From Fuerstiella sp. (lineage in GTDB: Bacteria > Planctomycetota > Planctomycetia > Planctomycetales > Planctomycetaceae): a stretch of DNA of 37,984 nt. Where the stretch lies: the NCBI GenBank assembly GCA_029941865.1, contig JAPYTO010000038.1:1-37984 (forward strand), in the 5' to 3' direction. Below the pieces are notes generated by a model. That model was not told the origin of the DNA. It ran no database searches and saw only the letters and a program-made list of their open reading frames with translations. The position numbers and the translations under genes are program-made. Below, piece by piece: positions 6,397 through 29,410 of the stretch (position 1 is the first letter of the stretch; every line of letters starts with the position of its first letter).

Positions 6397-6466
6397 ATTG
6401 ACGCTCCTGAATTTGATGATCGACGCTATTTGGACCATGTCGGACGAATTGTTGCGCAGAGGCGCT

Positions 6467-6511
6467 GAGACGCAGAGGAAAAGTCCCCCTGACTCTATGA
6501 CTCTGCGTCTC
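6467..6511. repeat. 11-base inverted repeat between kinase and GH32 genes
   Basis: The arms gagacgcagag (6467-6477) and ctctgcgtctc (6501-6511) are perfect complements with a 23-base loop. The octamer cgcagagg also occurs twice in a row just here. No T-run follows on the minus strand, so it is more likely an RNA-stabilising or attenuating hairpin, or a dispersed repeat, than a terminator. Confidence 0.6.
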
Positions 6512-6534
6512 GCGTGAGATAATCTGTTTTGGCT

Positions 6535-7431
6535 TCATTTCGTTGGTAATGTTTCGGCTGCCTGCGAACGGGGGACGGCTCCGGAGTGGGCACAGGTTGC
6601 CGCTGCGATCACACATGCCTTGTGTAGAAGTTTGTCATGGGGTTCGTCACGCAAGACTCCCAGCAAAAATGCGGCCGTAAACGCGTCGCCGGCGCCGACG
6701 GTGTCGCGAACGGCTGTTGGAATTCCGGGATGCAGCAGGATTCCGTCGGCCGTCGCCAGCACCGCTCCTTCCGCACCTCGCGTCATGACAACAAGATGCA
6801 GGTTGTTCATGTTGAGTAGCTGACGAAGCTGCGCGTCAGGTGGATCGCCGATTTCAATTCCGCAGGCCGTGCAGACTTCCGGCAGTTCTTCTTCGCTGAG
6901 TTTCAGAATGCTGGCGTGCTGGACGGACTCGCGAATCAGTTCAGAATCAAAAAATGGCGGGCGAAGATTGATGTCCAGGACACGAGGGATCCCCGTGGCG
7001 CTTGCGGCTTTAATACATTGGCGGATCGTAAGACGCGACGCTTCAGACCGTTGCCCAAGTGTTCCGAAATAGACCGCGTCCGCTGCGAGCACCCGAGCCT
7101 CAAGTTGCCCGCTCCAGCCGAGGCGGTCCCACGCTGACCCTTCGTGAATCGTAAACGTTGGGCTGCCATCTGCATCCAGCTCGACGCTCACGGTGCCAGT
7201 GGCAGCATCGGGAACAACTTGTATCAGACTCACGTCAATCCCGTATCCCTGAAGTATGTCGACGGCCAGGCGTCCGTGCCGGTCTGCACCGACTGCGCTG
7301 ACCATCGTCACATCGCCACCGGAGATTGCCGCGTGACAGGCAAAGTTGGCCGAGGCGCCGCCAAACTGCTCGCCGTCCGGAAACAGATCCCACAGCACTT
7401 CACCGAGTGAAATGATTGCCGGTCGTTTCAT
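6535..7431 (-). CDS. PfkB-family sugar kinase, fructokinase-like
   Basis: A 298-residue cytoplasmic kinase of the ribokinase/PfkB fold. It starts with ISLGEVLWDLFPDG and GGASANFACHAA (substrate-binding region, PfkB signature 1 area) and carries the ATP-site signature DTVGAGDAF at 243-251, in which D249 is the catalytic base. The GEVLWD and GGASANFA wording is typical of fructokinases, which phosphorylate fructose released by a fructosidase. The ATG overlaps the TGA of the upstream sugar porter (ATGA, 7428-7431), so the two are almost certainly co-translated, and the GH32 gene follows about 140 bases downstream. Substrate is inferred from context plus motifs and could be another hexose. Confidence 0.9.
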   Translation of the reverse strand: MKRPAIISLGEVLWDLFPDGEQFGGASANFACHAAISGGDVTMVSAVGADRHGRLAVDILQGYGIDVSLIQVVPDAATGTVSVELDADGSPTFTIHEGSAWDRLGWSGQLEARVLAADAVYFGTLGQRSEASRLTIRQCIKAASATGIPRVLDINLRPPFFDSELIRESVQHASILKLSEEELPEVCTACGIEIGDPPDAQLRQLLNMNNLHLVVMTRGAEGAVLATADGILLHPGIPTAVRDTVGAGDAFTAAFLLGVLRDEPHDKLLHKACVIAAATCAHSGAVPRSQAAETLPTK

Positions 7432-8756
7432 TCGGCCATCCCCAGTTCGTGCTCGATTTGCTCCAGTGGACGTCCTTTTGTCTCCGGCACCATGGCCTTC
7501 ACCCAGACAAGCTGCAGGACCATCATGAGACAGAAGAAGCCGAAGACGTAGCCGGGCTCAAACAGTGTCACCATTGACGGAAAAAACAGCGTCAGCAGTG
7601 CGGCAAAAATCCAATGGGTAAAACAGCCCAGCGACTGCCCCTGAGCGCGATGTCGATTCGGAAAGATCTCCGAAATGAACACCCAGATGACGGCTCCCTG
7701 CCCCACAGCGTGCGCGGCAATGAACGCGAAGATGCACGCCGGGACGATGGCGAAGTTCTCTGTAAAGAAGGCCCACGCACAAAGTCCCAGCGATGCGATG
7801 TAGCCGAACGATCCGATGTAAAGCAGCGTTCTGCGACCAAGCCGGTCGATCAGCCACAGGCCGACAAATGTGAAGATCAAATTGGTCACACCGATGCCCA
7901 CCGACTGCAGCAAAGCCGCTTTCTCACCCAGGCCTGTGAGTTCAAAGATTCGCGGTGCGAAATACAGAATGGCGTTGATGCCGGAAAGCTGATTGAAGAA
8001 CGCAATCAGAAACGCCAGCCGGATGGGCGTCTTCAGACGGTTGCTCCAGAAACCGCCCGTGCTGGACGCTTCGTGGGCGACTGCCGCAATCTCATCCGCC
8101 TTTGCTTCGATCTCACTGTGCGCGGCGTCCGCATGGATCAGACGCAGCACTGCAACGCCGGCGGCACGATCGTCTTTTCGTCCAATCAACCACCGCGGAC
8201 TCTCCGGCAGACCGAAACACAACACGCTGTAGATCAATGCTGGAATTGCCTCAACACCCATCATCCACCGCCACGCGTTGTCACCGATGCCGCCAAGCAA
8301 CGTGTTGGAAACAAAGGCAATCAAAATGCCAAACACAATGTTGAACTGAAACATTCCGGCCAATCGGCCTCGATATTTTGGCGGAGCAATCTCGGAGATG
8401 TAAAGCGGTGCCGCGACGGTCGAGATGCCGACACCCAATCCGCCGATAAACCGAGCGACCATGAACGAATTCACATCGTTCGCCAGGGCGGACCAGACAG
8501 CGGAGACGAAGTACAAAAGGCCGATAGACAGCAGGGTCCTGGTGCGACCAAAGCGATCCGTCGGCAGACTCCCCAGCAGCGACCCGACGACCGTGCCCCA
8601 CAAAGCCATGCTCATCGCGAGGCCATGCTGGAAGTCGCCCAGTTGCCATAGCGACTGAATCGTCTTTTCCGCCCCCGAGATGACGACGGTATCGAACCCA
8701 AACAGGAATCCCGCGAGCGCCGCCGTCAGGGACCAGAAGAAAAGACGTTGATTCAA
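7428..8756 (-). CDS. MFS sugar porter (sugar:H+ symporter type)
   Basis: A 442-residue, roughly 12-helix major facilitator of the sugar porter family. Signatures in order: LAGFLFGFDTVVISGAE in helix 1, PTDRFGRTRTLL in loop 2-3, PESPRWLIGRKDD after helix 6, LIDRLGRRTLLYIG in loop 8-9 and VPETKGRPLEQIE at the C-terminus. The open frame goes up to 8936 with an ATG at 8795, but TTG at 8756 has GGAG 8 bases upstream and gives a protein beginning (M)NQRLFFWSLTAALAG, as expected for this family. The upstream residues are hydrophilic and unlike a membrane protein. It probably imports fructose or short fructans for the overlapping kinase gene and is the first gene of the catabolic operon. Confidence 0.92.
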   Translation of the reverse strand: MNQRLFFWSLTAALAGFLFGFDTVVISGAEKTIQSLWQLGDFQHGLAMSMALWGTVVGSLLGSLPTDRFGRTRTLLSIGLLYFVSAVWSALANDVNSFMVARFIGGLGVGISTVAAPLYISEIAPPKYRGRLAGMFQFNIVFGILIAFVSNTLLGGIGDNAWRWMMGVEAIPALIYSVLCFGLPESPRWLIGRKDDRAAGVAVLRLIHADAAHSEIEAKADEIAAVAHEASSTGGFWSNRLKTPIRLAFLIAFFNQLSGINAILYFAPRIFELTGLGEKAALLQSVGIGVTNLIFTFVGLWLIDRLGRRTLLYIGSFGYIASLGLCAWAFFTENFAIVPACIFAFIAAHAVGQGAVIWVFISEIFPNRHRAQGQSLGCFTHWIFAALLTLFFPSMVTLFEPGYVFGFFCLMMVLQLVWVKAMVPETKGRPLEQIEHELGMAE

Positions 8757-9125
8757 GATTCGTTCTCCGTCATGGTGATCGCGACTGCGTCCCATTGCGT
8801 CTGCGTAATTCGCTATAAAACTGATTGGTTTTGTAGTGTTTCTGTGGCAGATTACGATGAGTCCCGACCGGCTCTGTAGAAAACTTTCTATTCCTGGCCA
8901 GTACAACGCCTGGGCACAGACTCTCGATGCAGGCACATGGCTGGTTGTGTTTCAATTTCTCGGGCGGCGAAAGACGAGATCGGCTTTTCGAAGGAGCATT
9001 GCTGGCACTCTGCCTATGAAGAATACAGCATCACACTCCTCCTGGCCCTTCGACACTATTGTTTACCGAACCCTCGAAGCCTGCGGCGAGAAATGATCCT
9101 GATCCGAGAATGATCGTTGGGGGCG
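8757..9125. other. Spacer upstream of the fructan-type operon
   Basis: About 370 bases between the sugar porter start and the methyltransferase stop, both on the minus strand. No gene is supported. The porter operon promoter should lie here, but I see neither a convincing -35/-10 pair nor a strong operator-like palindrome. Confidence 0.4.
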
Positions 9126-9740
9126 TCACTTCGTTGCCGTTCCTCGGTACAGATAGCCTTGTGTCTTTGCAACTTGTTCAATGCAAAAGTTGTCCATATC
9201 TACCGCCTCGAACGGCTGTTGTAAAAATAGCCCCCCGATGTCAATTTCAAGGCGACACCCATCAGCGAACTTGCTTTGAAGCCACGTCAATCGCCGCTGC
9301 CATTTCTGCACTTCAGGATCGTCACTTAATCCATGCTCCAGAAAATAGAAGCGGCCCCCTGGTCGAAGCACGCGATATAATTCGCCCATTGCCTGCTGAA
9401 CGTCCGGGATGCTGCACAGCGTCATTGTGCTGACGATCGTGTCAAACGAGTCATCATCGAAAGGCAGTTCCTCGCTGCTGATGACCCGCTTGTCCACTTC
9501 AACTCCCGATTTTCCGATCCGTTTTTGTAGCATCCGATTCATGCCAGGGTTGGGATCAACCGTCGTGATTCTGTGAACGTGTTCAGGGTAGTGTTCCAGA
9601 TTGAGTCCGGTCCCAACACCGATCTCAAGAATTTCCCCACTGACATTGGCCAGCTGCTGCTGGCGATACTTCGTCCAGAACGGCTTATCCATGACGCAGT
9701 CATAGAAGCGAGGAAAGATGACATTCGAGTAGAAACCCAC
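9126..9740 (-). CDS. Class I SAM-dependent methyltransferase
   Basis: A 204-residue soluble protein with the Rossmann methyltransferase fold. Motif I is ILEIGVGTGLNLEHYP at about residues 37-52 (SAM-binding glycine loop), followed by VDPNPGM (ribose-binding acidic end of strand 2), LPFDDDSFDTIVSTMTLC (motif post-II/III) and ELYRVLRPGGRFYFLEHG. The layout resembles UbiE/METTL7-like small-molecule or lipid methyltransferases, but the acceptor cannot be read from sequence. It starts with GTG at 9740 with GGA upstream, and length is normal for a minimal class I enzyme. Neighbours on both sides are transporters with no obvious link, so it is probably a stand-alone gene. Confidence 0.88.
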   Translation of the reverse strand: MGFYSNVIFPRFYDCVMDKPFWTKYRQQQLANVSGEILEIGVGTGLNLEHYPEHVHRITTVDPNPGMNRMLQKRIGKSGVEVDKRVISSEELPFDDDSFDTIVSTMTLCSIPDVQQAMGELYRVLRPGGRFYFLEHGLSDDPEVQKWQRRLTWLQSKFADGCRLEIDIGGLFLQQPFEAVDMDNFCIEQVAKTQGYLYRGTATK

Positions 9741-9925
9741 GATATTTTTCCGTGACAGAGAAGTTGGTGTAGTTGGAAAGTCCGATCCTATGTCAGACCG
9801 ACTGTCGAGCCAACGCCAAGCGGATGCGAATCATCAACGACCGCACGTTCATTCAGAGCAGTGGTCGCCTGTTACTGTGTTCCTGCAGCTCGTTTAATCG
9901 CGTGGGCAGCGCCCCGCGTTTCGGA

Positions 9926-10159
9926 TTACAGGCAGGCGTAGATCAGGATCTGAATCAGCAATGCCACCGAAGCGCCGAGTTTCAGGTTTTCATCCCAGCG
10001 TTTTGCGCCGCCCGGTGGACACGTTGCGGACCGAGGAAGCCTGAGGACCCAAATCAGCAACGCAACCAGACTTGCCAGGAACAAAACGCGAATGGCAGGC
10101 AACGGGATTGCCTGCAGGCTTTGCCGCAGGAATTCGCCGAACCGATGCAGCGGAGTCAT
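9926..10159 (-). CDS. Small two-helix membrane protein coupled to a symporter
   Basis: 77 residues with two predicted membrane segments: IRVLFLASLVALLIWVL at about 23-39 and LGASVALLIQILIYA near the C-terminus, separated by a short polar, proline/glycine-containing loop (RLPRSATCPPGGAKRWDEN). Its ATG overlaps the TGA of the Na+/solute symporter (10156-10159), which implies translational coupling and roughly matched production. I do not recognise a family. Small partner proteins are known for some SSS transporters and other secondary carriers, so an accessory subunit is a reasonable inference, but nothing in the sequence proves interaction. Confidence 0.7.
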   Translation of the reverse strand: MTPLHRFGEFLRQSLQAIPLPAIRVLFLASLVALLIWVLRLPRSATCPPGGAKRWDENLKLGASVALLIQILIYACL

Positions 10160-11811
10160 GAGGTCCCTCCTTCTGTTGCTGTAGACGAATCAGCCGTCGA
10201 CGTCGCTCGCGAATGTCCACCAAATACGTACTTCAGCTTCTCTTCGGGAACCGGGCCACTCAACAGACTAAGCACCACTAACAGGACTGCAGTTACGGTA
10301 AACGCCCAAATGGAAAAGTACAGGAATGGTTCCTGAATGCGAAACAGCGGCTCCCAGCCCAACGCTGCATAAATCACCGGCTGATTCAACGCATACAGCG
10401 AAATGGAAGTGCCGATGCCACACAGCAGCGAAATCAAAGCGGCGTTTCCGGTAGCCCGTCGCCACAGAACTCCAATCAGTAGAACGGCGAACGCAGGTCC
10501 CTGAAAGAACGCCATCAATGTCTGAAAGATGGCGTAGAGCCCGGACTTTTCGCTCATCGCTGTCAAAAGAAATGCGAAGATCACTGCCCATGCGACCAGG
10601 GCAACCGTCGTGATACGCCCCACTTTCAACAGCCTTTCGTCGGACACGTCACGATCAACAAACCGTTTGTAGAAATCATTAGAAACGATCGTGGCCGCAG
10701 AGTTCAGGTACGAATCAATACTGGACATCAGCGCCGCCAGAAATGCGGCAACGAAGAGACCTCGCAGTCCGGCGGGCAACAGTACGCCAATGAGATTCGG
10801 AATGGCGGAGTCCCCGCTCTTCAGATCCGGCAGCAGGACCACAGCGATGAGCCCCGGTACGGCGACAATCAGCGGAATGATATTCTTCAGCAGGGCCCCC
10901 CAGATATACGACGCCTTGGCATCAAATTCGCTTCGCGCTCCGAGTGACCGTTGCACGATGGCCTGATTGCCAATCCAGTAGGCAGGGCTGAGGATCAGCG
11001 CCAGTCCAAAGTAAATCCCGGGCCAGGGGAACGGTGATTCGGTATCGGCCGGAAGAATCAGCGATGTACGTTCCGAGCTGGATTTCGCTGCGCCGACATC
11101 GTCAGTGACGATGGATGATTCGTTCACGGCCGCGGCTTCACGAGCATCCACTTCGGCCAGGCGAGCCCTCAGTTCTCCGACACCTCCGACCTCGATCAGT
11201 CCGAGAACGAGAATCAGCAGGCACCCCGCGATCATCACGGCGCATTGAATCATGTCGGTATAGACGACAGCGGCCAGACCGCCGACAAACGTATACCCGC
11301 CCACAAGAATCGCGGTGACGACAATGCATGCCACCTCGTTCCAGCCGAACACCGCCGACATCATCTTCGCCGACGCCAGCAGCATGATGCCCAGGTTGCA
11401 CGCCATGAACAGCAGCCAGCACACGGCCATGACTGACCGCACACCGACGTTGTAACGACGTTCCAGGAACTCCGGGACGGTGTAAACTCCGGAACGATAC
11501 AGAAACGGTATAAAGACAAAGGCCCCGACGATCATCGCCGGAACGCAGCCGATCCATTCGAAATTGGCAACGGCCAGACCATGGCTGAAGGCGGCGCCGC
11601 CCACGCCAATGATGTCCGTGCCGCCGATGTCGGTGGCGACCAGAGACATGCCAATGGCCCACCACGGCAGTCGCCTGCCGCCCAGGAAAAAGTCCTTCCC
11701 TGTTTTTATCCGCTTCCCGATCAGGACGCCCATCGCGATGGTACCTGCAAGGTACAGAGCGATGACCACATAGTCGGGCAGCGTCAGGGGAGTGGGAGCG
11801 GCAAGCAGCAC
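10156..11811 (-). CDS. Na+/solute symporter (SSS family)
   Basis: A 551-residue integral membrane protein of the sodium:solute symporter family. It opens with LPDYVVIALYLAGTIAMG, then GKDFFLGGRRLPWWAIGMSLVATDIG, the conserved region around helix 1-2 that shapes the Na+ site. YTVPEFLERRYN and GGLAAVVYTDMIQ are further family hallmarks, as is FLAALMSSIDSYLNSAATI. A polar loop rich in Asp/Ser (about residues 225-260) interrupts the helices and is longer than usual. It starts at GTG 11811 with a weak AGG upstream. The substrate is probably a sugar, sugar acid or similar (SGLT-like), but this is inferred. The stop overlaps the start of a 77-residue membrane protein. It is divergent from the CBM9-like gene across about 160 bases that should hold both promoters. 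Confidence 0.92.
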   Translation of the reverse strand: MLLAAPTPLTLPDYVVIALYLAGTIAMGVLIGKRIKTGKDFFLGGRRLPWWAIGMSLVATDIGGTDIIGVGGAAFSHGLAVANFEWIGCVPAMIVGAFVFIPFLYRSGVYTVPEFLERRYNVGVRSVMAVCWLLFMACNLGIMLLASAKMMSAVFGWNEVACIVVTAILVGGYTFVGGLAAVVYTDMIQCAVMIAGCLLILVLGLIEVGGVGELRARLAEVDAREAAAVNESSIVTDDVGAAKSSSERTSLILPADTESPFPWPGIYFGLALILSPAYWIGNQAIVQRSLGARSEFDAKASYIWGALLKNIIPLIVAVPGLIAVVLLPDLKSGDSAIPNLIGVLLPAGLRGLFVAAFLAALMSSIDSYLNSAATIVSNDFYKRFVDRDVSDERLLKVGRITTVALVAWAVIFAFLLTAMSEKSGLYAIFQTLMAFFQGPAFAVLLIGVLWRRATGNAALISLLCGIGTSISLYALNQPVIYAALGWEPLFRIQEPFLYFSIWAFTVTAVLLVVLSLLSGPVPEEKLKYVFGGHSRATSTADSSTATEGGTS

Positions 11812-11974
11812 AGTTGTTAGCCTGGCATGGAATATTACGGAACGACGAAAGTACCCAGGTTGACCTGCGACATGCTTTCAATGTGCCGGGCGATTGGGCA
11901 CAATCGAAGATTCAACGAATTCACGAACGTTCTGACAACAACGGCACCATAGCGTGAATCAACAGGAGATACGA

Positions 11975-12730
11975 ATGCATCAGCGGCCGACTCGTTTTGG
12001 AAAGCTCATCCTGATGTTGACTGTGGCTGCAGTCATGGTTCTGTCAGGACATGCGACAGCCGAGGACGCGGTTGCGACAGATGCGCCAAGGCTTACCGTG
12101 AAGAAGTGTGCGGACTTTAAAGTTACCGGAACGGGCGACGCAACAGCATGGCAGAAGGTCGAGTGGGTCGCGATGAATCGTCGGCCGACTGGCGAACACG
12201 AATACTCCACGCGCTTTAAGATGCTGTACTCGGACGCCGGTGTGTATGTGCTGTTCGACGGAAGCGACACGACTCTGACATCCACGATGAAGGAAGATTT
12301 CCTTGACCTGTGGAAGGAAGACGTCTTCGAGTGTTTTTTCTGGACGTCGGAAGATCATCCGGTGTATTTCGAATACGAAATCTCACCGTTGGGCTATGAA
12401 CTGCCGATTCTGGTGCCCAATCTCGACGGACGCTTTCTCGGCTGGCGGCCATGGAATTACGAAGGCACCAAAAAGGTTCAGAAAAAGGTTTCCGCGACAG
12501 GCGGTTCCAACGAATCGTTGTCTGCCGTCACCGGTTGGCGGGCTGAAGTGTTCATTCCTTACGAACTGCTGAAGCCACTGTGCAACGTACCACCGAAGTC
12601 GGGATCTCACTGGCGGGCGAACTTCTACCGCATGGACTATGACGGTGGAACAACGACCGCCTGGGACTGGGCTCGGGTGGGCCCGAGTTTCCACGAGTTC
12701 AAAAACTTCGGCACGCTTGTGTTTGAGTAA
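11975..12730 (+). CDS. Secreted CBM9-like carbohydrate-binding protein
   Basis: 251 residues: a signal peptide (FGKLILMLTVAAVMVLSGHATA) followed by one beta-sandwich domain resembling family 9 carbohydrate-binding modules (DOMON-like, formerly DUF1083). Recognisable stretches are the early GDATAWQKVEW, YSDAGVYVLFDGSD, DVFECFFW, YFEYEISPLG and the closing HEFKNFGTLVFE. The ATG at 11975 has AGGAG 7 bases upstream and is chosen over an in-frame GTG at 11954. No catalytic domain is attached, so it probably binds a glycan in the periplasm or at the surface. It lies 73 bases ahead of the amidohydrolase on the same strand and is likely co-transcribed with it. Confidence 0.85.
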   Translation: MHQRPTRFGKLILMLTVAAVMVLSGHATAEDAVATDAPRLTVKKCADFKVTGTGDATAWQKVEWVAMNRRPTGEHEYSTRFKMLYSDAGVYVLFDGSDTTLTSTMKEDFLDLWKEDVFECFFWTSEDHPVYFEYEISPLGYELPILVPNLDGRFLGWRPWNYEGTKKVQKKVSATGGSNESLSAVTGWRAEVFIPYELLKPLCNVPPKSGSHWRANFYRMDYDGGTTTAWDWARVGPSFHEFKNFGTLVFE

Positions 12731-12803
12731 TGGGTTTCCATCTGCAGGGGGCCTGAAGTCTCAACGCCCCTGTCGCATCGCTTCTGACATAACGAAGGTT
12801 GAC

Positions 12804-13946
12804 ATGGTCACTTCAAGACTGCAGTTCGGACTACTGTTCGTCATAGCCGGCACTTTGCTGCCAGGGCCCGACGCATTCGCCCAGAAAAAACCATCAGAAC
12901 CGAATGATACGCAGAGCATTCGAGAGCTGAAGTTACGGGACTGGGCACCCAGGTCGATGCTGAAGACAAAGGTCTCACGCGTCAACACGCCCGCATTTCC
13001 TGTCATTGATGTGCACAATCATCTTGGCGGAGGAGTAAAGACGCTTACCGCTGAAAGAGTGAAACGATACTTGAAGGAAATGGATGACGCCGGAGTGGAA
13101 ACGGTCATCAATCTGGACGGCGGCTGGGACGAGAAGCTTCAGGAAACGGTGGCGGCACTCGACAAGTCTCACCCAGGCCGATTCCTGACGTTCACACTGA
13201 TTAATCTGCGTGACTTCGAACAGGATGGCTGGACCGAACGCGAAACGGAACGACTACGAAAGAGTTTCGAGGCCGGTGCAAAGGGATTGAAGTTCCACAA
13301 GTCTCTCGGACTGTCGTACCGTGACAGAAATGAAAAGCTGCTGACGATTGATGACGAGCGATTGGATCCGATCTGGGCGCTGTGCGGTGAGATGAAACGC
13401 CCTGTGATGATTCACACTTCCGACCCGGCCGCCTTTTTCACGCCGCTGGATCGCTACAACGAGCGCTGGCACGAACTGAATGATCATCCCGGGTGGTTGT
13501 TTTACGGCGACCGCTTCCCGTCGCGGGAGGAACTGCTGGAACAACGTAACCGAGCCATCGCCAAACACCCCGAAACGACCTTCATTGGAGCCCACTTCGG
13601 CAACAACCCCGAGGACCTGGACACAGTCGGCAGGTGGCTCGATAAGTACCCCAACTTCTTCGTCGATATCGATGCACGTATTTCTGAGCTTGGTCGCCAG
13701 CCGTACAGCTGTCGCCGCTTCTTCATCAAGTACCAGGATCGCATCATGTTCGGCACGGACACCACACCGAAGGCCGACGCATATCGGCTCTACTATCGTT
13801 TCATGGAAACGGACGACGAATACTTCGATACGGCGGAGTCACACCATCGCCAGGGATTATGGAATATCTATGGCATTTTTCTTCCGGAACAGGTTCTTGA
13901 AAAAATCTATCGCACCAATGCAGCTCGGGTTCTGGGAATTCACTGA
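12804..13946 (+). CDS. Secreted amidohydrolase-2 family protein
   Basis: 380 residues starting at ATG 12804 (GAAGG upstream); the longer open frame from 12639 overlaps the previous gene and is rejected. A signal peptide (LQFGLLFVIAGTLLPGPDAFA) precedes a metal-dependent TIM-barrel of the amidohydrolase-2 (ACMSD-like) type. Metal ligands seen: H71-x-H73 (VIDVHNHLGG), the His in PVMIHTSDP, the His in FIGAHFG and the Asp in IMFGTDTTP. GLKFHKSLG provides a further conserved Lys/His strand. Such enzymes hydrolyse or decarboxylate small carbonyl substrates or lactones. The export signal suggests a periplasmic substrate, which I cannot identify. Confidence 0.85.
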   Translation: MVTSRLQFGLLFVIAGTLLPGPDAFAQKKPSEPNDTQSIRELKLRDWAPRSMLKTKVSRVNTPAFPVIDVHNHLGGGVKTLTAERVKRYLKEMDDAGVETVINLDGGWDEKLQETVAALDKSHPGRFLTFTLINLRDFEQDGWTERETERLRKSFEAGAKGLKFHKSLGLSYRDRNEKLLTIDDERLDPIWALCGEMKRPVMIHTSDPAAFFTPLDRYNERWHELNDHPGWLFYGDRFPSREELLEQRNRAIAKHPETTFIGAHFGNNPEDLDTVGRWLDKYPNFFVDIDARISELGRQPYSCRRFFIKYQDRIMFGTDTTPKADAYRLYYRFMETDDEYFDTAESHHRQGLWNIYGIFLPEQVLEKIYRTNAARVLGIH

Positions 13947-14119
13947 CGAAGAATCGGCGCACGAAATCACCGTCAGCAAATTGGCATGGTGTTGATGCTG
14001 TTCTACAGTGTTGTGTTGAAGTTTTCAGGCCATCAAATATTTCTAATCTCGTCGTACTCGCTGACGGGTTGTTTTCTGTTCAGCGACGAACATCTCCCCA
14101 CCTTAGGAATATTCTTACC

Positions 14120-17100
14120 ATGAATCCCACCTGCCAGTTCGTGTCCGGGCACTCCTTATTCGTTGCCTGTTGTCTCAGTTTTCTCGCCTCTGGAGCGGCC
14201 GCAGCCGACGAGTACGAGCTGCACTCATTTGAGCGTCAGCAACTGACCGATGTCTACTTTTCCGAAGGTGCCAACGCGGCCGACGTGAATGGCGACGGCG
14301 TTCCTGACGTTGTGTATGGGCCCTACTGGTTCGCGGGGCCGAATTACACAACGAAGCAGGAAATCTATGAGCCGGTGCCGCAGGACACCAACCGTTACGC
14401 CGACAATTTCTTTTCCTGGTTGTACGACTTCAACGGCGACGGCTGGAATGACGTGTTCGTCGTTGGGTTTCCTGGCACACCGGCCTATGTTTATGAGAAC
14501 CCAAAGGCAGACGGTTTCGGTGGCCACTGGAAAAAACATCAGGTGTTCGACTGGGTTTCCAACGAATCCCCGCAGCTGATGAACATCGTCGGCGACGAAC
14601 GGCCGGAACTCGTCTGCACGCGTGACGGATTCTTTGGCTTTGCGACCATTGACTGGGAAGAACCATTTGGCACATGGACATTCCACCCGGTGTCGGAACA
14701 GATTGCTTCCAAACGGTTTGGCCATGGACTGGGCATCGGCGACGTAGACGGCGATGGCCTGGCGGACATTATTCATTTTGGTGGCTGGTTTCAGCAGCCC
14801 GATAAGAACGCCGACCGTTCACGTTGGCTGTCGCATGAAACGTCGTTCAGCAAAGCGTACGGCGGAGCCGAAATGCATGTCTACGATGTCGATGGCGATG
14901 GCGACAACGACATCATTACCAGCCATGCGGCTCACGAATTCGGGCTGGGTTGGTACGAACATGTGACCGATGGTGACGACATCAGTTTCAAACACCATTT
15001 GATCATGGGATCACATCCCTCTGAGAACAAGTATGGCGTTCTGTTCAGTGAACTGCATTCCTTGAATCTGGTCGATATCGACGGCGACGGGCTGAAGGAT
15101 ATCGTGACCGGCAAGACGTACTGGTCACATCACGAACAGAGTCCGATGTGGGATGCGGGGGCTGTGACGTACTGGTTCAAGCTCGTCCGCAGCAAAGACG
15201 GTGTCGACTGGATCCCTCACAAAGCCGACGGTGAAGCGAGCATTGGTCGTCAACTGTCGATTGTCGACATGAACGCTGACGGGCTGCCTGACATCGTTGT
15301 GGGAGGCATGAAAGGAGCTCACGTTCTTACTCACAAAAAGACGTCCGTGTCGAAAGCGGTGTGGCAGGCAGCTCAGCCGAAAGTCTACGAAGGTGAAAAA
15401 CTTCCGTCGCTGGAAGGCGTCAAGGCTTCCCGTGGCCCAAAGTTGAAGCTTGATTCAAAGACCAGCAAGGCGATCGGCGCCATCGAAGCTGAGTCATTGA
15501 GAGTTCGAACAACAGGGGGGCAGGCACTGCCGCAGGACATGAGTAAGTTCAGAGACGACCAGTGGAGCAACAAGTCACAACTGTGGTGGACAGGTGGCCG
15601 CGTGGGTGACAAGCTGACTCTGGAACTGCCGGCGTTCACCGGAACGGTGGACGTCGACGTCGTGCTGACAATTGCCAAGGACTATGGCATCGTTCAGTTG
15701 TCGCTGGACGATCAACCACTTGGTGCCCCCATTGATCTGTTCAATGCCGACGTGGTAACAACGGGAATCCTTTCCTTCCCAAAGATCACGGTCAAAGGTG
15801 GCAAACACACGCTGACGGTGCTCATCGCGGGAACAAATCCCAAAGCGAAGAAGTCCTTCATGTTTGCGATGGACTATCTTCGAGTCAAGAAGTCCGACGG
15901 AACGTTTGTGGTGGGAATGCCGGCCGTTCAACGTTCTTCCAGCAGAATCACCCAGTCGTCGTCAGGCACCAGGCCTAAGTCGATGGCCGGTCGGGAACTG
16001 AATCTTGACTTCGAAACCGGCACTCTTGCTGACTGGACGGCCACGGGGAATGCCTTCGAAGGTCAGCCGATCCAAGGCGATACCGTCGCGCCGCGGCGAC
16101 CCGGCATGAAGAGTGCTCACGGAGGGGAATTCTGGATTGGTGGCTTCGAACACCACGAAGACGGTCGGATCGGCACGCTGACATCGGCCCCGTTTGTCGT
16201 GTCGCAGCCCTATGGCGCATTTCTGACAAACGGCGGGCAGGATGAAAAGACTCGAGTCGAACTGGTCCGCGGGGACACAGGTAAGGTGTTCTACGAAATT
16301 GCCGGCACGAACAGCGAAACAATGCGGCGTGTGGTCGTCGATCTGCGAGCACACGTGGGCAAAGAGATCAGGGTTCGACTGGTGGATGCCAGCACCGGCG
16401 CATGGGGGCATCTGAACTTCGATCAGTTCCGGCTGCATGAAAAGCGCCCCGCGAAACCAACGGCACCCATGATCCAGCTGGTGCAGGACGATTATCCACA
16501 CGCCGAATTGTCCGCCGCAGAAGCTGCAGCGGCGATGAAGCTGCCGGACGGATTTTCCGTGACGGTGGGTGCCGCGGAACCGGACGTGCAGCAGACGATT
16601 GCCATGGCGATTGACGATCGAAATCGCGTTTGGATTGCGGAAGCCTACGAGTATCCGATCCGCGCTAAAGGTGACGAAGGCCGAGACCGCATTCTGATCT
16701 TCGAGGACACGGACGGCGACGGAACGCTGGACAAGCGTAAAGTCTTCATTGAGGGGCTCAACCTTGTCAGCGGTCTGGAAGTTGGGTTTGGCGGGGTCTG
16801 GGTAGGTGCCGCCCCTTACCTGATGTTCATCCCGGACAGGGATGGCGACGACAAACCTGATGCCAAACCAAAGATTCTGCTGGACGGCTGGGGTTATCAG
16901 GACACGCACGAAACACTCAACGCGTTCATCTGGGGACCGGATGGCTGGCTGTACGGCTGCCACGGCGTCTTCACTCACTCCAACGTTGGCAAACCAGGGG
17001 CGTCCGACGAGGAGCGTGTGCCCGTCAACGCAGCCGTCTGGCGTTATCACCCGATCAGACACGAATTTGACGTGTTTGCTCACGGCACCAGTAATCCGTG

Positions 17101-19951
17101 GGGAGTCGACTTCAACGATCACGGACAGGCGTTTATCACAGCCTGCGTGATTCCTCATCTGTATCACATGGTGCAGGGCGGTCGCTATCAACGGCAGGGC
17201 GGTCAGCATTTTAACCCGTACACTTACCGTGATATCGTGACGATTGCCGACCACCTGCATTATCTGGGTGCAACTCCGCACGGCGGAAACAGCAAGTCAG
17301 ATGCGGCAGGTGGTGGGCACGCGCACGCCGGGGCCATGATCTACCTTGGAGATCGCTGGCCTCAGAAATATCGCAACCAGTTGTTCATGAACAACATCCA
17401 CGGACAGCGACTGAATGTTGACGTGCTGAAACCCAACGGTTCCGGCTATATCGGCAGCCATGGCCCGGATTTTCTGCTGACCGGTGATCAGGCGTCGCAA
17501 ATTCTGAATCTCCGTTACGGCCCGGACGGCAATGCATGGATGATCGACTGGTATGACATGCAGGCCTGCCATCGGCGAGAGTCCAGCGTGCACGATCGCA
17601 GCAACGGCCGCATCTACAAAATCAGCTACGGTGAGCCGACAATTGCCGAAGAGTTCGTCGACATGGCCAACCTGTCCGACGTGGAGCTGGCGGAAATGGT
17701 GCTGCAGCCCAACGACTGGTATGTGCGACACAGTCGCCGATTGCTGCAGGAACAAGCAGCAAATGGAGATGTCGACGTCGCCGCGCTAAAGCTGCTGGCC
17801 GGGGTGTTGACAATGCATCCGGAGGACACGCGTCGTCTTCGAGCCGCCTGGGCGTTGCACGTGGTCAATGAACTTTCGCCCAAACTGCTGGACGCCATGT
17901 TGGACGATGCCAGCCCGTACGTTCGTGGCTGGGCCGTTCAGCTGCGCATGGAGTCCACTCCGGCAGACCTTCTGCCACGACTGTTACCCAAATTTACGAA
18001 AATGGCCCGTAACGATACTTCGCCCGTCGTCCGTTTGTATCTCGCATCGGCGGCACAGAGGATGTCTCTCGAGCAGAGATGGTCGCTGCTGGAAGGACTG
18101 ACAAGTCATTCCGTTGATGCAACAGATCACAATCTGCCGCTGATGTATTGGTACGCTGCAGAACCGCTGGCTGATGTTGATGCCACCAGAGCTCTGTCGC
18201 TGGGCATGTCGGCAGGTGAGTCAATCCCACTGCTACGTGAGTTGATGCTGCGCAGAATCGGCAGCTCTGACAGTGACTCTTCATTGCATGTGCTTGTCAA
18301 AGGTCTCGGCGAGGCTAAATCGGAATCGCTGCAACTGACATTTTTGAAGGCGATTCGAACGGCCCTGCGCGGGCAACGGCGTGTGCAGGCGCCCGTCAAC
18401 TGGGCCGGTATTTCGTCGCACTTGTTACAGAGTGAGAGCCAGAGCGTACGCCTGCAGGCCACAGCTCTTGGTGTAACCTTCGGCGATCCGACGGCAATGA
18501 AAATGATGCGGAGTCAGATCGCGGACGTGTCGGCGGATGGCGATGCGCGTCTTGTGGCGCTACAGTCGCTGCTGGATGCAAATGATGGTGGCCTGGTCCC
18601 GACGTTACAGGGGCTCCTGAATGCGGACGCTCCTCTTCGCGAAGCGGCCATTCGTGGTCTCGCCCAATACGACGACCGCAGTATCGCGCCGGCTTTGCTG
18701 GCGAATTATGCCAGTTTCACCCCGGATCAAAGACGCATGTCACTGGGCACGCTTTGTTCCCGATCGAATTCAGGCATCTCTCTGTTGAAGGCCATAGCAG
18801 CGAATCAGGTGCCCGGCACGGACCTGACGGCTGATCTGGTGCGACAATTACAGTTTCTGAAGAACGATGAAGTCAACTCTCTGCTGGCAAATGTCTGGGG
18901 CACAGTTCGGGAAAGCGCAGCTGACAAGCTGGCGATGATCGTCGGTTACAAAGATCTCGTCGCATCTGATTCGCACCCCACAGCGGATACTGAACTCGGA
19001 CGAGCCGTTTTCGCCAAAACCTGTATGAAGTGCCACCTTCTCTACGGTGCGGGAAACAGGATCGGTCCGGATCTCACAGGATCAAACCGTTCGAACATCG
19101 ACTACCTGCTAAGCAATATCGTGGACCCGAGCGCTGTCATGGCGAAGGAATATCGTGCCACGATTATTTCAACGCTGAATGGCCGAGTCGTGACGGGCCT
19201 GGTGAAGGCGGAAGACAGCAAGTCGGTCACGATTCAGACGTCGGACGCGTTGGTTATCGTCCCGAAGGACGAGATCGACGAACGCATCGAAAGCGACAAG
19301 TCGATGATGCCGGACGATCAGTTGAAACAATTCTCTGAGCATCAGACCCGTTCGCTGATCGCCTATCTGCGAGGCAAACAGCAGGCTCCGATGTTGGCAA
19401 CGAAGGATAACGTTTCAGCGATCTTCAACGGCAAGGATCTGAGCGGCTGGTCGGGACGTGAAGGCCTGTGGTCCGTCGAAAATGGTGAGCTTGTCGGACG
19501 CACGGATGGACTCAGTCGCAACGAATGGATCGTCAGCGATTTGTCAGCGGATGATTTCCATCTGACCCTTGAGGTGAAGCTCATCGATAATGCGGGAAAC
19601 AGTGGTGTCCAGTTCCGCAGCCACGCCAAAGAAGGAGAAGTGTCCGGCTATCAGGCCGACGTCGGCCAGGGCTGGTGGGGAAAACTGTATGAAGAGCATG
19701 GTCGAGCTCTTCTCTGGAAGAAGTCCGGTGATGAACACGTAAACGTTGGCGACTGGAATACGTACGAAATCATTGCGGAACGCAATCACATTCGCACGTT
19801 CATCAACGGTCAGCCATGCGTCGACATGGACGATCCCGAAGGTGCCGTGCGGGGTGTTATCGCCTTCCAGCTGCACAGCGGAGGTAAGACCGAGGTTCGG
19901 TTTCGAAACATCCGACTGGAAGTTCTGGCTGTGGAAATCGAGACGGACTAA
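14120..19951 (+). CDS. 1943-residue mosaic: FG-GAP, PVC dehydrogenase, HEAT, cytochrome c, DUF1080
   Basis: Starts at ATG 14120 with a signal peptide (SLFVACCLSFLASGAAAA). Domains in order: FG-GAP/VCBS propeller, residues about 50-395, with six Asp-rich loops (DVNGDGVPD, DFNGDGWND, DVDGDGLAD, DVDGDGDND, DIDGDGLKD, DMNADGLPD); a beta-sandwich module, about 455-600; a second module, about 627-775, related to the N-terminal domain of the GH32 gene (GAWGHLNFDQF); the PVC-type membrane-bound dehydrogenase propeller, about 787-1177 (LPDGFSVTVGAAEPD, VWIAEAYEYP, GNAWMIDWYDMQACH); HEAT-like helices, about 1180-1600; cytochrome c with C1635-M-K-C1638-H1639; and DUF1080, about 1764-1943 (FNGKDLSGW), a concanavalin-like glycan domain. 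It is presumably periplasmic and may oxidise a sugar-type substrate while bound to a polysaccharide. This combination is longer than the usual dehydrogenase-HEAT-haem arrangement. It follows the amidohydrolase by 173 bases. Confidence 0.93.
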   Translation: MNPTCQFVSGHSLFVACCLSFLASGAAAADEYELHSFERQQLTDVYFSEGANAADVNGDGVPDVVYGPYWFAGPNYTTKQEIYEPVPQDTNRYADNFFSWLYDFNGDGWNDVFVVGFPGTPAYVYENPKADGFGGHWKKHQVFDWVSNESPQLMNIVGDERPELVCTRDGFFGFATIDWEEPFGTWTFHPVSEQIASKRFGHGLGIGDVDGDGLADIIHFGGWFQQPDKNADRSRWLSHETSFSKAYGGAEMHVYDVDGDGDNDIITSHAAHEFGLGWYEHVTDGDDISFKHHLIMGSHPSENKYGVLFSELHSLNLVDIDGDGLKDIVTGKTYWSHHEQSPMWDAGAVTYWFKLVRSKDGVDWIPHKADGEASIGRQLSIVDMNADGLPDIVVGGMKGAHVLTHKKTSVSKAVWQAAQPKVYEGEKLPSLEGVKASRGPKLKLDSKTSKAIGAIEAESLRVRTTGGQALPQDMSKFRDDQWSNKSQLWWTGGRVGDKLTLELPAFTGTVDVDVVLTIAKDYGIVQLSLDDQPLGAPIDLFNADVVTTGILSFPKITVKGGKHTLTVLIAGTNPKAKKSFMFAMDYLRVKKSDGTFVVGMPAVQRSSSRITQSSSGTRPKSMAGRELNLDFETGTLADWTATGNAFEGQPIQGDTVAPRRPGMKSAHGGEFWIGGFEHHEDGRIGTLTSAPFVVSQPYGAFLTNGGQDEKTRVELVRGDTGKVFYEIAGTNSETMRRVVVDLRAHVGKEIRVRLVDASTGAWGHLNFDQFRLHEKRPAKPTAPMIQLVQDDYPHAELSAAEAAAAMKLPDGFSVTVGAAEPDVQQTIAMAIDDRNRVWIAEAYEYPIRAKGDEGRDRILIFEDTDGDGTLDKRKVFIEGLNLVSGLEVGFGGVWVGAAPYLMFIPDRDGDDKPDAKPKILLDGWGYQDTHETLNAFIWGPDGWLYGCHGVFTHSNVGKPGASDEERVPVNAAVWRYHPIRHEFDVFAHGTSNPWGVDFNDHGQAFITACVIPHLYHMVQGGRYQRQGGQHFNPYTYRDIVTIADHLHYLGATPHGGNSKSDAAGGGHAHAGAMIYLGDRWPQKYRNQLFMNNIHGQRLNVDVLKPNGSGYIGSHGPDFLLTGDQASQILNLRYGPDGNAWMIDWYDMQACHRRESSVHDRSNGRIYKISYGEPTIAEEFVDMANLSDVELAEMVLQPNDWYVRHSRRLLQEQAANGDVDVAALKLLAGVLTMHPEDTRRLRAAWALHVVNELSPKLLDAMLDDASPYVRGWAVQLRMESTPADLLPRLLPKFTKMARNDTSPVVRLYLASAAQRMSLEQRWSLLEGLTSHSVDATDHNLPLMYWYAAEPLADVDATRALSLGMSAGESIPLLRELMLRRIGSSDSDSSLHVLVKGLGEAKSESLQLTFLKAIRTALRGQRRVQAPVNWAGISSHLLQSESQSVRLQATALGVTFGDPTAMKMMRSQIADVSADGDARLVALQSLLDANDGGLVPTLQGLLNADAPLREAAIRGLAQYDDRSIAPALLANYASFTPDQRRMSLGTLCSRSNSGISLLKAIAANQVPGTDLTADLVRQLQFLKNDEVNSLLANVWGTVRESAADKLAMIVGYKDLVASDSHPTADTELGRAVFAKTCMKCHLLYGAGNRIGPDLTGSNRSNIDYLLSNIVDPSAVMAKEYRATIISTLNGRVVTGLVKAEDSKSVTIQTSDALVIVPKDEIDERIESDKSMMPDDQLKQFSEHQTRSLIAYLRGKQQAPMLATKDNVSAIFNGKDLSGWSGREGLWSVENGELVGRTDGLSRNEWIVSDLSADDFHLTLEVKLIDNAGNSGVQFRSHAKEGEVSGYQADVGQGWWGKLYEEHGRALLWKKSGDEHVNVGDWNTYEIIAERNHIRTFINGQPCVDMDDPEGAVRGVIAFQLHSGGKTEVRFRNIRLEVLAVEIETD

Positions 19952-21381: not shown

Positions 21382-23838
21382 TCAGTCCACGGAGGTCACG
21401 ATCCTGACCGCCTCGCACAAGACTCTGACAAGGACGCACGCCACGATGCCGCTGACGGTGTACAGATATCCATTTACATTTGTGAACGTCCACAGCGAGA
21501 ACATCACCATCGCCCCCACAAATGCACCCGTCAGAGCGCCAAATGCGTTCGCTCGACGGGTGAGCACTCCCAGCACGAACAGGCCGCCGAGGACGCCCAT
21601 AAACAAGCCAATGACTTTGAGGAAGGCATCGAACAACGACTTGATCTCCGGGTCCACAAAGATCAGGCCGAACAGCGTTCCGACGACTCCCATCAGAAAC
21701 GTGATCACGCGAGCGGCGTTCAGGTAGGACTTTTCCGTCCGGCACGCATCGAATGGTCGCATGAAGTCGGTGACGATGGTGGTCGCGGTGGAGTTCATGC
21801 TGGTCGAGACTGTGGACTGTGCTGCGGAAAAAATGCCCGCCACAATCAAACCGGCGATGCCGACCGGCATTTCGTTGGCGATGAACAGTGGGAAAATCTG
21901 GTCCGTCGTGATGGTCGGGTCCAGCTTGTCAGGGTGCGAGCGGTAAAACGCGAACAACGCCGTTCCAATGCCAAAGAACAGCAGCGTGGCAGGAATCGTC
22001 AGCACGGCATTTGTCCAGATGGAACGAGCGGCAAGTTTCTGATCCCTGGTGGTCATGTAGCGTTGCACGACGGCCTGATCGGCCGTGTAGGACGAAATGT
22101 TCTGACCCAATGCCCCAATAACCACGACCCACAGAGCAATCTGAGCGTTCGTCACATCCCAGTGGAGGTTGGCGAAGCGAAGCTTATCAGCATCCAGAGC
22201 GACCCGCAGCGAGCCGTCGAGGCCACCGTCGGCTCCCGAGATCAACAGAATGAGCGCCAGCAGTCCGCCTCCCAGCAGAACGAATGTCTGAATGGTGTCT
22301 GTCCAGATCACGGCTTCGATCCCACCCATCGTGCAGTAGATGATGCTGAGGACTCCCATCAGCAACACTGACTGCTGCGGAGTCAGCGGCGTAGCGACGG
22401 CCAGTGCCAACCCGGTCAGCGACATGACCACGGCCATGCGGAAGACGTGAAAGAGCGTAAAACTGGCAGACCCGAACAATCGCACGCAGCGGCTAAATCG
22501 CTTCTCCAGGTATTCATAGGCACTGGTCGCGTCGATGCGCCGGTAGAACGGCAGCGCGACATAGACGCCAACGACCGCCACCACAGGAATCATGAAGTTG
22601 CCAACGGCGTATACCCAATCCTGGGCAAATGCCTTCGACGGAATTCCAGTGAAGGTCAGCGAACTGAGCATCGTCGCGAAGATGCTGCAACCGGCAGCCC
22701 ACCACGGGATGTTCATGCCGCCTCGAAAGTAATCGTCGGTGTTCCTGTTCTTCCGAGCAAAGTAGACACCGACACCGACCATGGCCAACAGGTAGCCGAA
22801 CAGCACGCAATAGTTCACGGTGCCGAATCCACGTTTCTGAGCGACCGGGGCAACACTCCAGACAGAAGGCGTTCGTACCCGAGGCCGAACTTCTCCGCTG
22901 GCAATGACGATGCGGCCGTCCCACATGACCGGCACGGTGGTGACATGGTTCTGCGGCATGGCACCGGTTGACGTCCACGTGTCGGTAATCGTGTGATAGG
23001 CCAATGACTCTTTGGGAAACCCTGGATGTCGGTCCTGCTGTTCGTCTGCCTGGAAGAACAGTGAACCGTCGTCTCCACCGAGCACGAAGATGTGACTTTG
23101 CCCAAAGCCGATCCCTGTCCCCGCCAGCGCCGGGCGAGGCACGTCGGCGCGCCGCCGCCATTGACCGGCCTTTGGTGTGAATTCCCACACGTCCGTCAGA
23201 AATTCGACATTATCCTGGTCCTGCCGCCGACCGCTCATGACATACACGCAATCCTCGTAGCCATTGTGTTGACTGACGGTGATGTTGAAGGCCCGCGAAT
23301 CGCCCGGCCATGCAGGCAGTTGCTGCCAGACAAACGCACCGGAATCCACGTCGCTGCCGGCCGGGTTCGGCTTCTTTGACAGGTCCAGCGCCCAGAAGTT
23401 GTTCAGGGCAGATTCCAGACCGCTGTCACTTTGACCACCTGCCACATAGATCACATCGCCGACGACAACGGCCTGACCGTACGCACATGGCTGCGGCAAC
23501 GAAGGATATTCAACCCGCGTAACCTTTTGAGTCGCTGCGTCCCAGCGCAGTGCAAACACTTCTTTGAAGGTCGCGACACCGTCGTTGCCGCCGATGCAGA
23601 TGACGCCGTCGGGGGTGGACACCGCAGTCCCATAGCCAATCGGACCAGACAGTGTGCCGCCACTTTTCCATTCGTAACCACCGTCCACCTTCGTCAGGAC
23701 ATGAATCGTGTCGTGCCAGGTCTTGTCTTTGTCCCAGACCGGGCGAGCAAAGTTGGCGCCACCGGCCAAGATCAGAGCATCGTTGTGAACACCAACGAAG
23801 GGCCCCGCGACGCCCAGTTCGTCCGGTAGATCCGGCAA
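21382..23838 (-). CDS. Kelch (NanM-like) domain fused to SSS symporter; signal peptide cut off by TAG
   Basis: 818 residues from TTG 23838. Residues 1 to about 330 are a kelch-type propeller resembling N-acetylneuraminate epimerase/mutarotase ([47 protein letters not shown]). From about 340 ([16 protein letters not shown]) to the end is a sodium:solute symporter ([64 protein letters not shown]). Fusions of this kind are annotated in planctomycetes and suggest uptake of sialic acid or a related sugar with anomer conversion outside the membrane. Upstream, the same frame encodes a good signal peptide separated from the domain by one TAG at 23887-23889. The TTG start used here is therefore probably not the ancestral start and would leave the propeller without an export signal. 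Confidence 0.85.
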
Positions 23839-29393: not shown

Positions 29394-29410
29394 GAAAGTT
29401 GATCCGGGGT

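Follow-up and report, generated by a model that had tools for sequence, protein, structure and literature searches.

The window (the whole 37,984-nt stretch analysed here) encodes a real, intact and secreted mosaic protein of 1943 residues, in which an FG-GAP propeller and two beta-sandwich modules precede a PVC-type dehydrogenase propeller, a HEAT-repeat solenoid, a haem c domain and a PF06439 (DUF1080) domain. This architecture is widespread among planctomycetes. We tentatively propose, with a probability of about 0.4, that the protein is a polysaccharide-bound, haem-linked enzyme that would first oxidise sugar chains and then cleave them.

Domain architecture of the mosaic protein

The gene reads from an ATG at 14120 to a stop codon at 19949-19951 without internal stops, and an alternative TTG start at 14069 would give an N-terminus 17 residues longer. 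Pfam and NCBIfam searches of the protein (Table 1) match FG-GAP_3 (E 4.6e-19, in four stretches), DUF7133 (residues 799-1170, E 4.1e-65), TIGR02604 (residues 811-1171, E 1.2e-112; 377 bits against a cut-off of 122.2), HEAT_2 (E 3.6e-7), the haem-domain family TIGR02603 (residues 1622-1751, E 6.9e-32) and PF06439 (residues 1767-1933, E 2.3e-36; 126 bits against a curated cut-off of 26.8). The layouts of two AlphaFold2 models, covering residues 27-799 (mean pLDDT 89.9, pTM 0.72) and residues 790-1943 (mean pLDDT 87.5, pTM 0.79), agree with these domain calls.

Table 1. Features of the mosaic gene and of the two genes upstream of it in the window
Feature	Residues	Coordinates	Strand	Evidence
Secreted CBM9-like protein, not a conserved partner		11954..12730	+	Pfam, locus comparison
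Secreted amidohydrolase (PF04909), not a conserved partner		12639..13946	+	Pfam, genome comparison
Whole mosaic gene	1943 residues + stop	14120..19951	+	Open frame
Signal peptide, Sec-type	1-29	14120..14206	+	By eye
FG-GAP/VCBS beta-propeller, six canonical Ca-type loops	35-415	14222..15364	+	Pfam, AlphaFold2, Foldseek
CBM84-like (xanthan-binding MiXBM-like) beta-sandwich	441-596	15440..15907	+	Profile search, AlphaFold2, Foldseek
Module B beta-sandwich	623-796	15986..16507	+	AlphaFold2, locus comparison
PVC-type dehydrogenase propeller, DUF7133/TIGR02604	799-1171	16514..17632	+	Pfam, NCBIfam, AlphaFold2, hhalign
His930	930	16907..16909	+	Invariant in 48/48 of alignment
Gln1127	1127	17498..17500	+	Aligned with Arg of E. 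coli YliI
HEAT-repeat alpha solenoid	1186-1612	17675..18955	+	Pfam, AlphaFold2
c-type cytochrome domain, TIGR02603	1614-1756	18959..19387	+	NCBIfam
CxxCH haem motif	1635-1639	19022..19036	+	Invariant in 48/48
Met1730, likely axial haem ligand	1730	19307..19309	+	Invariant in 48/48
PF06439 3-keto-disaccharide hydrolase (DUF1080) domain	1765-1936	19412..19927	+	Pfam, Foldseek

These matches and models bear out the modules and their order as listed in an earlier note made from the sequence alone. The six loops that it assigned to the FG-GAP propeller lie at residues 55, 103, 208, 256, 319 and 383, and the two beta-sandwich modules ahead of the dehydrogenase are backed by the AlphaFold2 model, the first of them also by its match to MiXBM. 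A degenerate seventh loop, seen by eye near residue 158, would make the FG-GAP domain a seven-bladed propeller. The description of the chain as a secreted, single-chain redox protein with substrate-binding domains is likewise supported: C1635, C1638, H1639 and M1730 are each invariant in 48/48 homologues, and the CxxCH motif with this conserved distal Met marks a cytochrome of the His/Met type, M1730 being the likely ligand.

Distribution of the architecture in relatives

The relatives compared are 79 loci, fetched from the best 80 of 235 confirmed places picked by similarity to the query, and counts among them describe this selection rather than prevalence. All but one come from planctomycete or unplaced records (78), the exception being L050, which is labelled Pedosphaera. 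PF06439 lies, whole or partial, in the dehydrogenase frame in 71/79 loci, a count that includes domains cut by contig ends (e.g. L013) and weak ones (L063, 24% identity; L069, 37%); it is absent from three loci (L021, L036 and L074), and five more are cut by contig ends. The FG-GAP propeller is fused ahead of the dehydrogenase in 41/79 loci and behind PF06439 in four (L039, L048, L053 and L060), and it occupies a separate adjacent frame in another four (L034, L050, L052 and L057, the last of which looks like a broken frame); it was not found in 26/79, and four are undecidable. Because FG-GAP is fused in front in 41 loci and PF06439 is in frame in 71, the mosaic is neither a product of chance nor an assembly chimera.

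The other front modules differ in how they travel. Module B accompanies the dehydrogenase in 70/79 loci, and the CBM84-like module is present in 32 of the 41 front FG-GAP fusions and in none of the other arrangements among the 79 loci. Since the propellers behind PF06439 share merely 31-34% identity with the window propeller, they may be separately acquired relatives rather than the window unit relocated. A tree of 48 cores (quick search, SH-aLRT only) gives at least 11 changes among the four arrangements, the class without FG-GAP including loci where a distant FG-GAP gene would escape notice. Alignment A1 consists of the window and 47 of 64 usable loci, and alignment A2 of the window and 31 of 35.

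At the genome level, 58 genomes were compared, 57 of them relatives and the other that of the window; at least 29 encode a chain running from a whole or partial dehydrogenase to the end of PF06439. This figure is a lower limit, with 12 candidates scored per genome among the matches listed; the chain of G020 has one internal stop, and G057 holds a chain from HEAT to PF06439 only. Within the window's genus, the dehydrogenase-PF06439 chain is found in 4/8 genomes. Recurrence in relatives rules out that the architecture is unique, and the novelty suggested for it by the earlier note is weakened, as the same domain order recurs and the flanking genes are not conserved. Among the open-licence papers listed in literature searches, none describes the architecture in its title or abstract, and no assay of a protein with this architecture was found.

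The PF06439 domain and its candidate chemistry

PF06439, formerly DUF1080, is currently named 3-keto-disaccharide hydrolase in Pfam. Among the structures that Foldseek matches to the core model are ones whose PDB titles read 3-keto-glycoside eliminase/hydratase (8rr2, 9fbe) and 3-keto-2-hydroxy-glucal-hydratase (8tda, 8v31), and the closest solved domain to that of the window is the N-terminal domain of BT3469 (4jqt). Bacteroides BT2157, described as a 3-ketotrehalose hydrolase (PMC9007349), and its relatives (3osd, 8rr2, 8tda, 9fbe) have the PF06439 fold in common with the mosaic, but the window domain belongs to another subtype: its conserved patterns, compared by eye, are Q-x-D and QxHxGG against E-x-Q and QDHG of BT2157-like enzymes, and are not shared as aligned. 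The window domain nevertheless has a polar cluster of its own (Q1845, D1847, E1858, E1859, R1862 and H1919), each residue of which is retained by 45 to 48 of the 48 sequences. Putative active-site residues are named in a figure of PMC9765024.

A functional parallel comes from Caulobacter, where the DUF1080 protein CCNA_01705 is important for lactose utilisation and is proposed to be a 3'-ketolactose hydrolase acting after the periplasmic lactose 3-dehydrogenase LacABC; the same paper reports a lactose phenotype for none of 10 DUF1080 genes in Pedobacter (PMC9007349). By analogy, the mosaic would follow the same oxidise-then-cleave logic, with extracytoplasmic glycoside oxidation likewise thought to feed a DUF1080 protein. 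The Caulobacter system divides the steps among separate proteins, whereas the mosaic combines a PVC-type propeller and a built-in haem in a single chain. Because such a dehydrogenase shares the chain with PF06439, the 3-keto substrate could be supplied in-chain, and PF06439 alone is the reason for placing the oxidation at C3. The lactone-type product suggested in the earlier note is without support; PF06439 points to 3-keto-glycosides instead.

Another possibility, which we consider somewhat unlikely, is that the protein is a haem-linked sugar dehydrogenase that oxidises polysaccharides or their ends for respiration, all its other modules, including a CBM66-like PF06439 domain, only binding glycan. 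CBM66 structures match the core model at TMt 0.72-0.75 against ~0.5 for the eliminase/hydratases, a measure that favours the shorter CBM66 chains. The subtype without BT2157-type patterns, the overlap of CBM66 and DUF1080 annotations in Thermogutta (PMC5673643) and the three loci without PF06439 point the same way. The conservation of the polar cluster speaks against this reading, as do the single-domain DUF1080 protein THTE_1561, which is reported as an endo-glucanase/xanthanase (PMC10881899), and the Gfo/Idh/MocA neighbours described below, which fit keto-sugar chemistry. Given THTE_1561, the PF06439 family may also hold chemistry other than 3-keto hydrolysis.

The dehydrogenase propeller and its cofactor

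Of the soluble PQQ sugar dehydrogenases (YliI, sGDH and AA12), YliI shows remote, partial homology to the mosaic propeller: hhalign aligns the two over 219 columns (probability 90, E 1.6e-6). The YliI Arg, which we take to be a PQQ ligand by analogy with sGDH, is mostly replaced by Gln: the Gln1127 column reads Q in 33, R in 9, L in 2, M in 2, V in 1 and I in 1 of the 48 sequences, and the position two residues further on is L, I or V in 48/48. The PQQ-ligand arginines of soluble sugar dehydrogenases are not conserved at the aligned positions in these 48 sequences. By eye, the His930 motif resembles what is presumably the catalytic-His segment of PQQ sugar dehydrogenases, a segment that lies outside the hhalign alignment. 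Many polar residues of the propeller, His930 included, are invariant in 48/48 and dozens are near-invariant, so an active site is likely.

PqqC and over-cut-off PqqE are both absent from 57/58 genomes, including the window's own, which is 90.5% complete. The sole matches to both lie on contig C724 of G015, which shows that the search was capable of detecting these genes. Every one of the 58 genomes has PqqE matches below the cut-off, as does each of the 14 control genomes; these matches probably represent other radical-SAM proteins. On these comparisons PQQ is a doubtful cofactor; either it would be scavenged from outside or the cofactor is something else.

It is quite unlikely, in our view, that the dehydrogenase propeller itself is a glycosidase, working by transient oxidation or another mechanism with the haem as an accessory. 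Such activity has been reported for Lac161_ORF7, a protein with TIGR02604, HEAT_2 and a CxxCH domain from a cosmid assigned to Chthoniobacter, which was made in IPTG-induced E. coli BL21(DE3)pLysS, with haem c maturation genes unmentioned in the excerpt, and which after purification hydrolysed lactose with a Km of 1.8 mM (PMC5342196). The many invariant polar residues of the propeller would also suit a glycosidase. The Km, however, is close to that of LacZ and E. coli BL21(DE3)pLysS is lacZ-positive, so LacZ carry-over is possible. We have downgraded this one report from proof of glycosidase activity to weak evidence.

Sibling dehydrogenases in the same genome

The core order of the mosaic is the same as that of TIGR02604/DUF7133-TIGR02603 proteins, and the earlier note was right to call the dehydrogenase-HEAT-CxxCH core a known planctomycete type. 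Other PVC-type dehydrogenase-HEAT-haem c proteins have this order, the haem motif and the propeller family in common with the mosaic; what sets the mosaic apart is its C-terminal PF06439 domain and its front unit of FG-GAP propeller and CBM84-like module. We count at least 28 frames above the TIGR02604 cut-off in the window's genome, from a listing of 53 match rows that also includes pieces of a single frame and rows below the cut-off. Besides the frame of the window, 26 of these were fetched and 24 were scanned, leaving out L098, L101 and contig C211. Eleven of the 24 carry an extra Pfam module. These modules are ThuA (L100, L109, L110 and L111), GDSL esterase (L104, L107 and L111), sulfatase (L108), a ceramidase-like module (L082 and L095, the former also with a weak polysaccharide deacetylase), NPCBM (L088), PA14 (L107), F5/8 C (L104 and L109) and, in one sibling, FG-GAP (L090). 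PF06439 was found in 0/24, and L095, L108 and L111 are cut by contig ends ahead of any haem motif. On contig C41, a PF06439 fragment stands in front of a below-cut-off TIGR02604 match in one 1147-residue frame that is cut by the contig end.

Neighbouring genes

We scanned 53 of the 69 same-strand nearest neighbours; the other 16 are mostly short ORFs but include the piece of the broken L057 frame and ORFs of 1178 aa (L020) and 230 aa (L040). The commonest families are Gfo/Idh/MocA (6), the beta-lactamase fold (4) and DUF1559 (3); MFS_1 was matched by 2. Gfo/Idh/MocA proteins account for 6/53 neighbours, compared with one at most among 108 distant control ORFs (Fisher p 0.005 taking 1). The control is a loose match, its 108 ORFs having been drawn from 347 that lie beyond 3 kb on either strand and its figure coming from the first 25 of 146 families, and related loci among the counts are non-independent. 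Two kinds recur. The L024 type stands shortly before the core, in the same orientation, in L024, L029, L062, L069 and L078, and in L052 the order is L024-type Gfo, FG-GAP gene and core; the L009 type stands shortly before the core, also in the same orientation, in L009 and L049 (94% alike). In all, of the 59 loci whose upstream flank exceeds 1.5 kb, 8 have a Gfo gene of one of these kinds shortly before the core or before the separate FG-GAP gene that goes with it, and 51 have neither kind at that position. The L024 type is likewise found ahead of the separate FG-GAP protein of L119 and ahead of a sibling dehydrogenase in the window's genome, the ThuA-DUF7133 fusion of L100. Weaker paralogues (25-29% to the L009 type) occur in L002, L003, L006, L008, L012, L018, L055 and L058, where they are encoded on the other strand or at a distance of several kb.

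The 60 listed PDB relatives of the Gfo proteins include sugar 3-ketoreductase, 1,5-anhydrofructose reductase, DgpA and inositol dehydrogenases, among others. These matches, mostly over the NAD-binding half, do not fix the substrate; the neighbours fit keto-sugar chemistry. Immediately after the core, L062 and L078 each have an ORF on the same strand (gaps of 14 and 0), and both ORFs belong to a single MFS-like cluster.

The earlier note had also suggested that the CBM9-like protein, the amidohydrolase and the mosaic could act together in a pathway for an oxidised sugar or lactone-type product, which we regard as very unlikely. The three window genes are adjacent on the same strand and both flanking genes look secreted, but the proposal does not hold as a conserved unit. 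Strong matches to both occur in 1/79 loci (L011), where they are non-adjacent to the mosaic, and neighbour absence is weak evidence in the many short-flanked loci; L037 has a weak amidohydrolase match (E 2.6e-5). The window amidohydrolase is matched in 21/58 genomes, with at least 67% identity in 6 (its own included), and among the loci and genomes compared it was seen beside the mosaic only in the window. The spacing of ~6 kb in L011 and G003 speaks for the pathway, although these are probably the same genome, since each combines a mosaic frame of 1999 residues with an amidohydrolase that is interrupted by a stop. Against it, G004 and G008 carry the amidohydrolase and mosaic genes at widely separated places of one chromosome, and G035 carries them on different contigs. 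Because L011 holds CBM9 and amidohydrolase in one 628-aa frame, a frameshift splitting such a fusion in the window was considered; it was dropped, the amidohydrolase frame having its own signal-peptide-like stretch by eye.

Amidohydrolases of another family recur near related genes. An Amidohydro_3 protein with a beta-lactamase-fold domain follows the free-standing FG-GAP gene of L113, and related proteins are encoded downstream of the L028 and L061 cores (69-71%) and upstream of that of L005 (31%).

The front unit

The module at residues 441-596 resembles the xanthan-binding MiXBM (CBM84, 7ehg) in both sequence and fold (profile E 4.4e-6; Foldseek TMt 0.78), but at 22% identity, and xanthan is a candidate ligand. 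MiXBM is PDB 7EHG, listed with the Microbacterium xanthan lyase MXL, whose binding module is placed in CBM84 (PMC10881899). The top Foldseek match of the FG-GAP front half is aldos-2-ulose dehydratase (4a7y and 4a7k, E 6e-14), the 7-bladed propeller of which is classed as VCBS (PMC8023676); the TM-score over the multi-domain model is low (0.33), and the likeness is one of fold only. Module B shows no similarity to the GH32 protein of the window (4124-5866), part of which had been considered as its possible relative.

The FG-GAP and CBM84-like modules are also encoded on their own, as a separate protein. In L112, L113, L114 and L117, frames of 639, 583, 621 and 588 residues align to window mosaic residues 1-24 through 589-599 with 56-64% identity, a 416-residue frame of L118 matches the window FG-GAP propeller, and frame length hints at a free-standing protein of this kind in G008 and G054. 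For this reason, the most plausible view of the long mosaic is that two secreted proteins, each found on its own elsewhere, are fused in it. Integrin-like adhesion is possible as the role of FG-GAP but is not preferred: the least likely reading of the whole protein is an adhesin-like or regulatory surface protein with integrin-like binding propellers and vestigial redox chemistry, for which the resemblance of the FG-GAP repeats to integrin alpha in a PDB profile search speaks, while the invariant haem residues (48/48) and the dozens of near-invariant propeller polar residues argue for a working redox protein.

Proposed function and implications

In the oxidise-then-cleave enzyme that we propose, the FG-GAP propeller and the CBM84-like module would hold the chain on its glycan, and the PVC dehydrogenase propeller would oxidise a sugar hydroxyl, most likely at C3. 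Electrons would pass to the built-in haem c, whose residues are present, and on to the respiratory chain. The PF06439 domain, by its family membership, may then split or hydrate the resulting 3-keto-glycoside, and the keto-sugar could be imported and reduced in the cytoplasm by a Gfo/Idh/MocA enzyme.

A more elaborate version, which is rather unlikely, assigns a catalytic role to the front propeller as well. The protein would then be a single-chain, non-hydrolytic polysaccharide-cleaving surface machine, with a CBM84-like anchor, a non-PQQ dehydrogenase, an electron-exporting haem, a PF06439 eliminase/hydratase and an FG-GAP propeller acting on the keto-sugar like aldos-2-ulose dehydratase. 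In that case it would belong to a modular class of planctomycete proteins that join the same kind of redox core to different sugar-trimming enzymes (ThuA, SGNH esterase, sulfatase, deacetylase), which act before or after the oxidation.

Of most interest are the cofactor question and the sibling dehydrogenases fused to ThuA, esterase or sulfatase modules. With PQQ synthesis genes missing from nearly all the genomes compared, the assumed cofactor of PVC dehydrogenases is called into question, in a family that has at least 28 frames in one genome and a single biochemical report found among open-licence papers. The PF06439 fusion and the Gfo/Idh/MocA neighbours point to a specific, testable substrate class, the 3-keto-glycosides. 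If the proposed function is true, respiration and glycan cleavage would be directly coupled within a single secreted chain, with no classical hydrolase involved.

Fusions and neighbors in related loci

The CBM9-like domain and the amidohydrolase, which are encoded by two genes in the window, lie in one frame at L011, a relative locus of the mosaic protein, and the amidohydrolase match there continues beyond a stop, up to position 3735. The corresponding frames are 664 residues in genome G004 and 648 residues in G008, and these lengths suggest that both genomes also carry the fusion.

L100 and L108 are among the dehydrogenase siblings of the mosaic in the window's own genome. The Gfo/Idh/MocA protein of L100 shares 77% identity with that of L024, another relative locus. 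The L108 frame, with the first half of the dehydrogenase, is truncated by the contig end. Relatives of the fusion at L113 (69-71% identity) lie downstream of the mosaic core, at 0.15 kb in L061 and 1.9 kb in L028.

PqqC together with an over-cut-off PqqE was found in only one of the 58 genomes (G015), where both lie on contig C724, about 0.5 kb apart.

Coordinates of the observed genes and gene groups
Locus	Coordinates (strand)	Content
L011	1795-3678 (+)	CBM9-like domain + amidohydrolase, one 628-residue frame
L100	2070-7721 (+)	ThuA-DUF7133 fusion; Gfo/Idh/MocA gene immediately upstream
L108	746-3298 (+)	sulfatase (PF00884 + SGSH_C) + first half of DUF7133 dehydrogenase, single frame
L113	2963-7623 (-)	stand-alone FG-GAP-CBM gene, then Amidohydro_3 + beta-lactamase-fold fusion
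Window	4124-11811 (-)	GH32, PfkB kinase, sugar-porter MFS, SSF symporter
Window	21382-23838 (-)	NanM-like cyclically permuted mutarotase + sodium/solute symporter, single 818-residue frame
Window	27969-32494 (-)	PSCyt1-PSCyt2-PSD1 protein adjoining DUF1501 protein

Other genes of the window

The pairing of DUF1501 with PSCyt1-PSCyt2-PSD1 proteins is common in planctomycetes. The mutarotase part of the 818-residue frame is a Kelch, N-acetylneuraminate epimerase-like domain, and the frame is a sugar epimerase fused to what is likely its transporter. GH32 is a fructan/sucrose hydrolase family, and the same-strand group that contains it may serve the use of sucrose or fructan.
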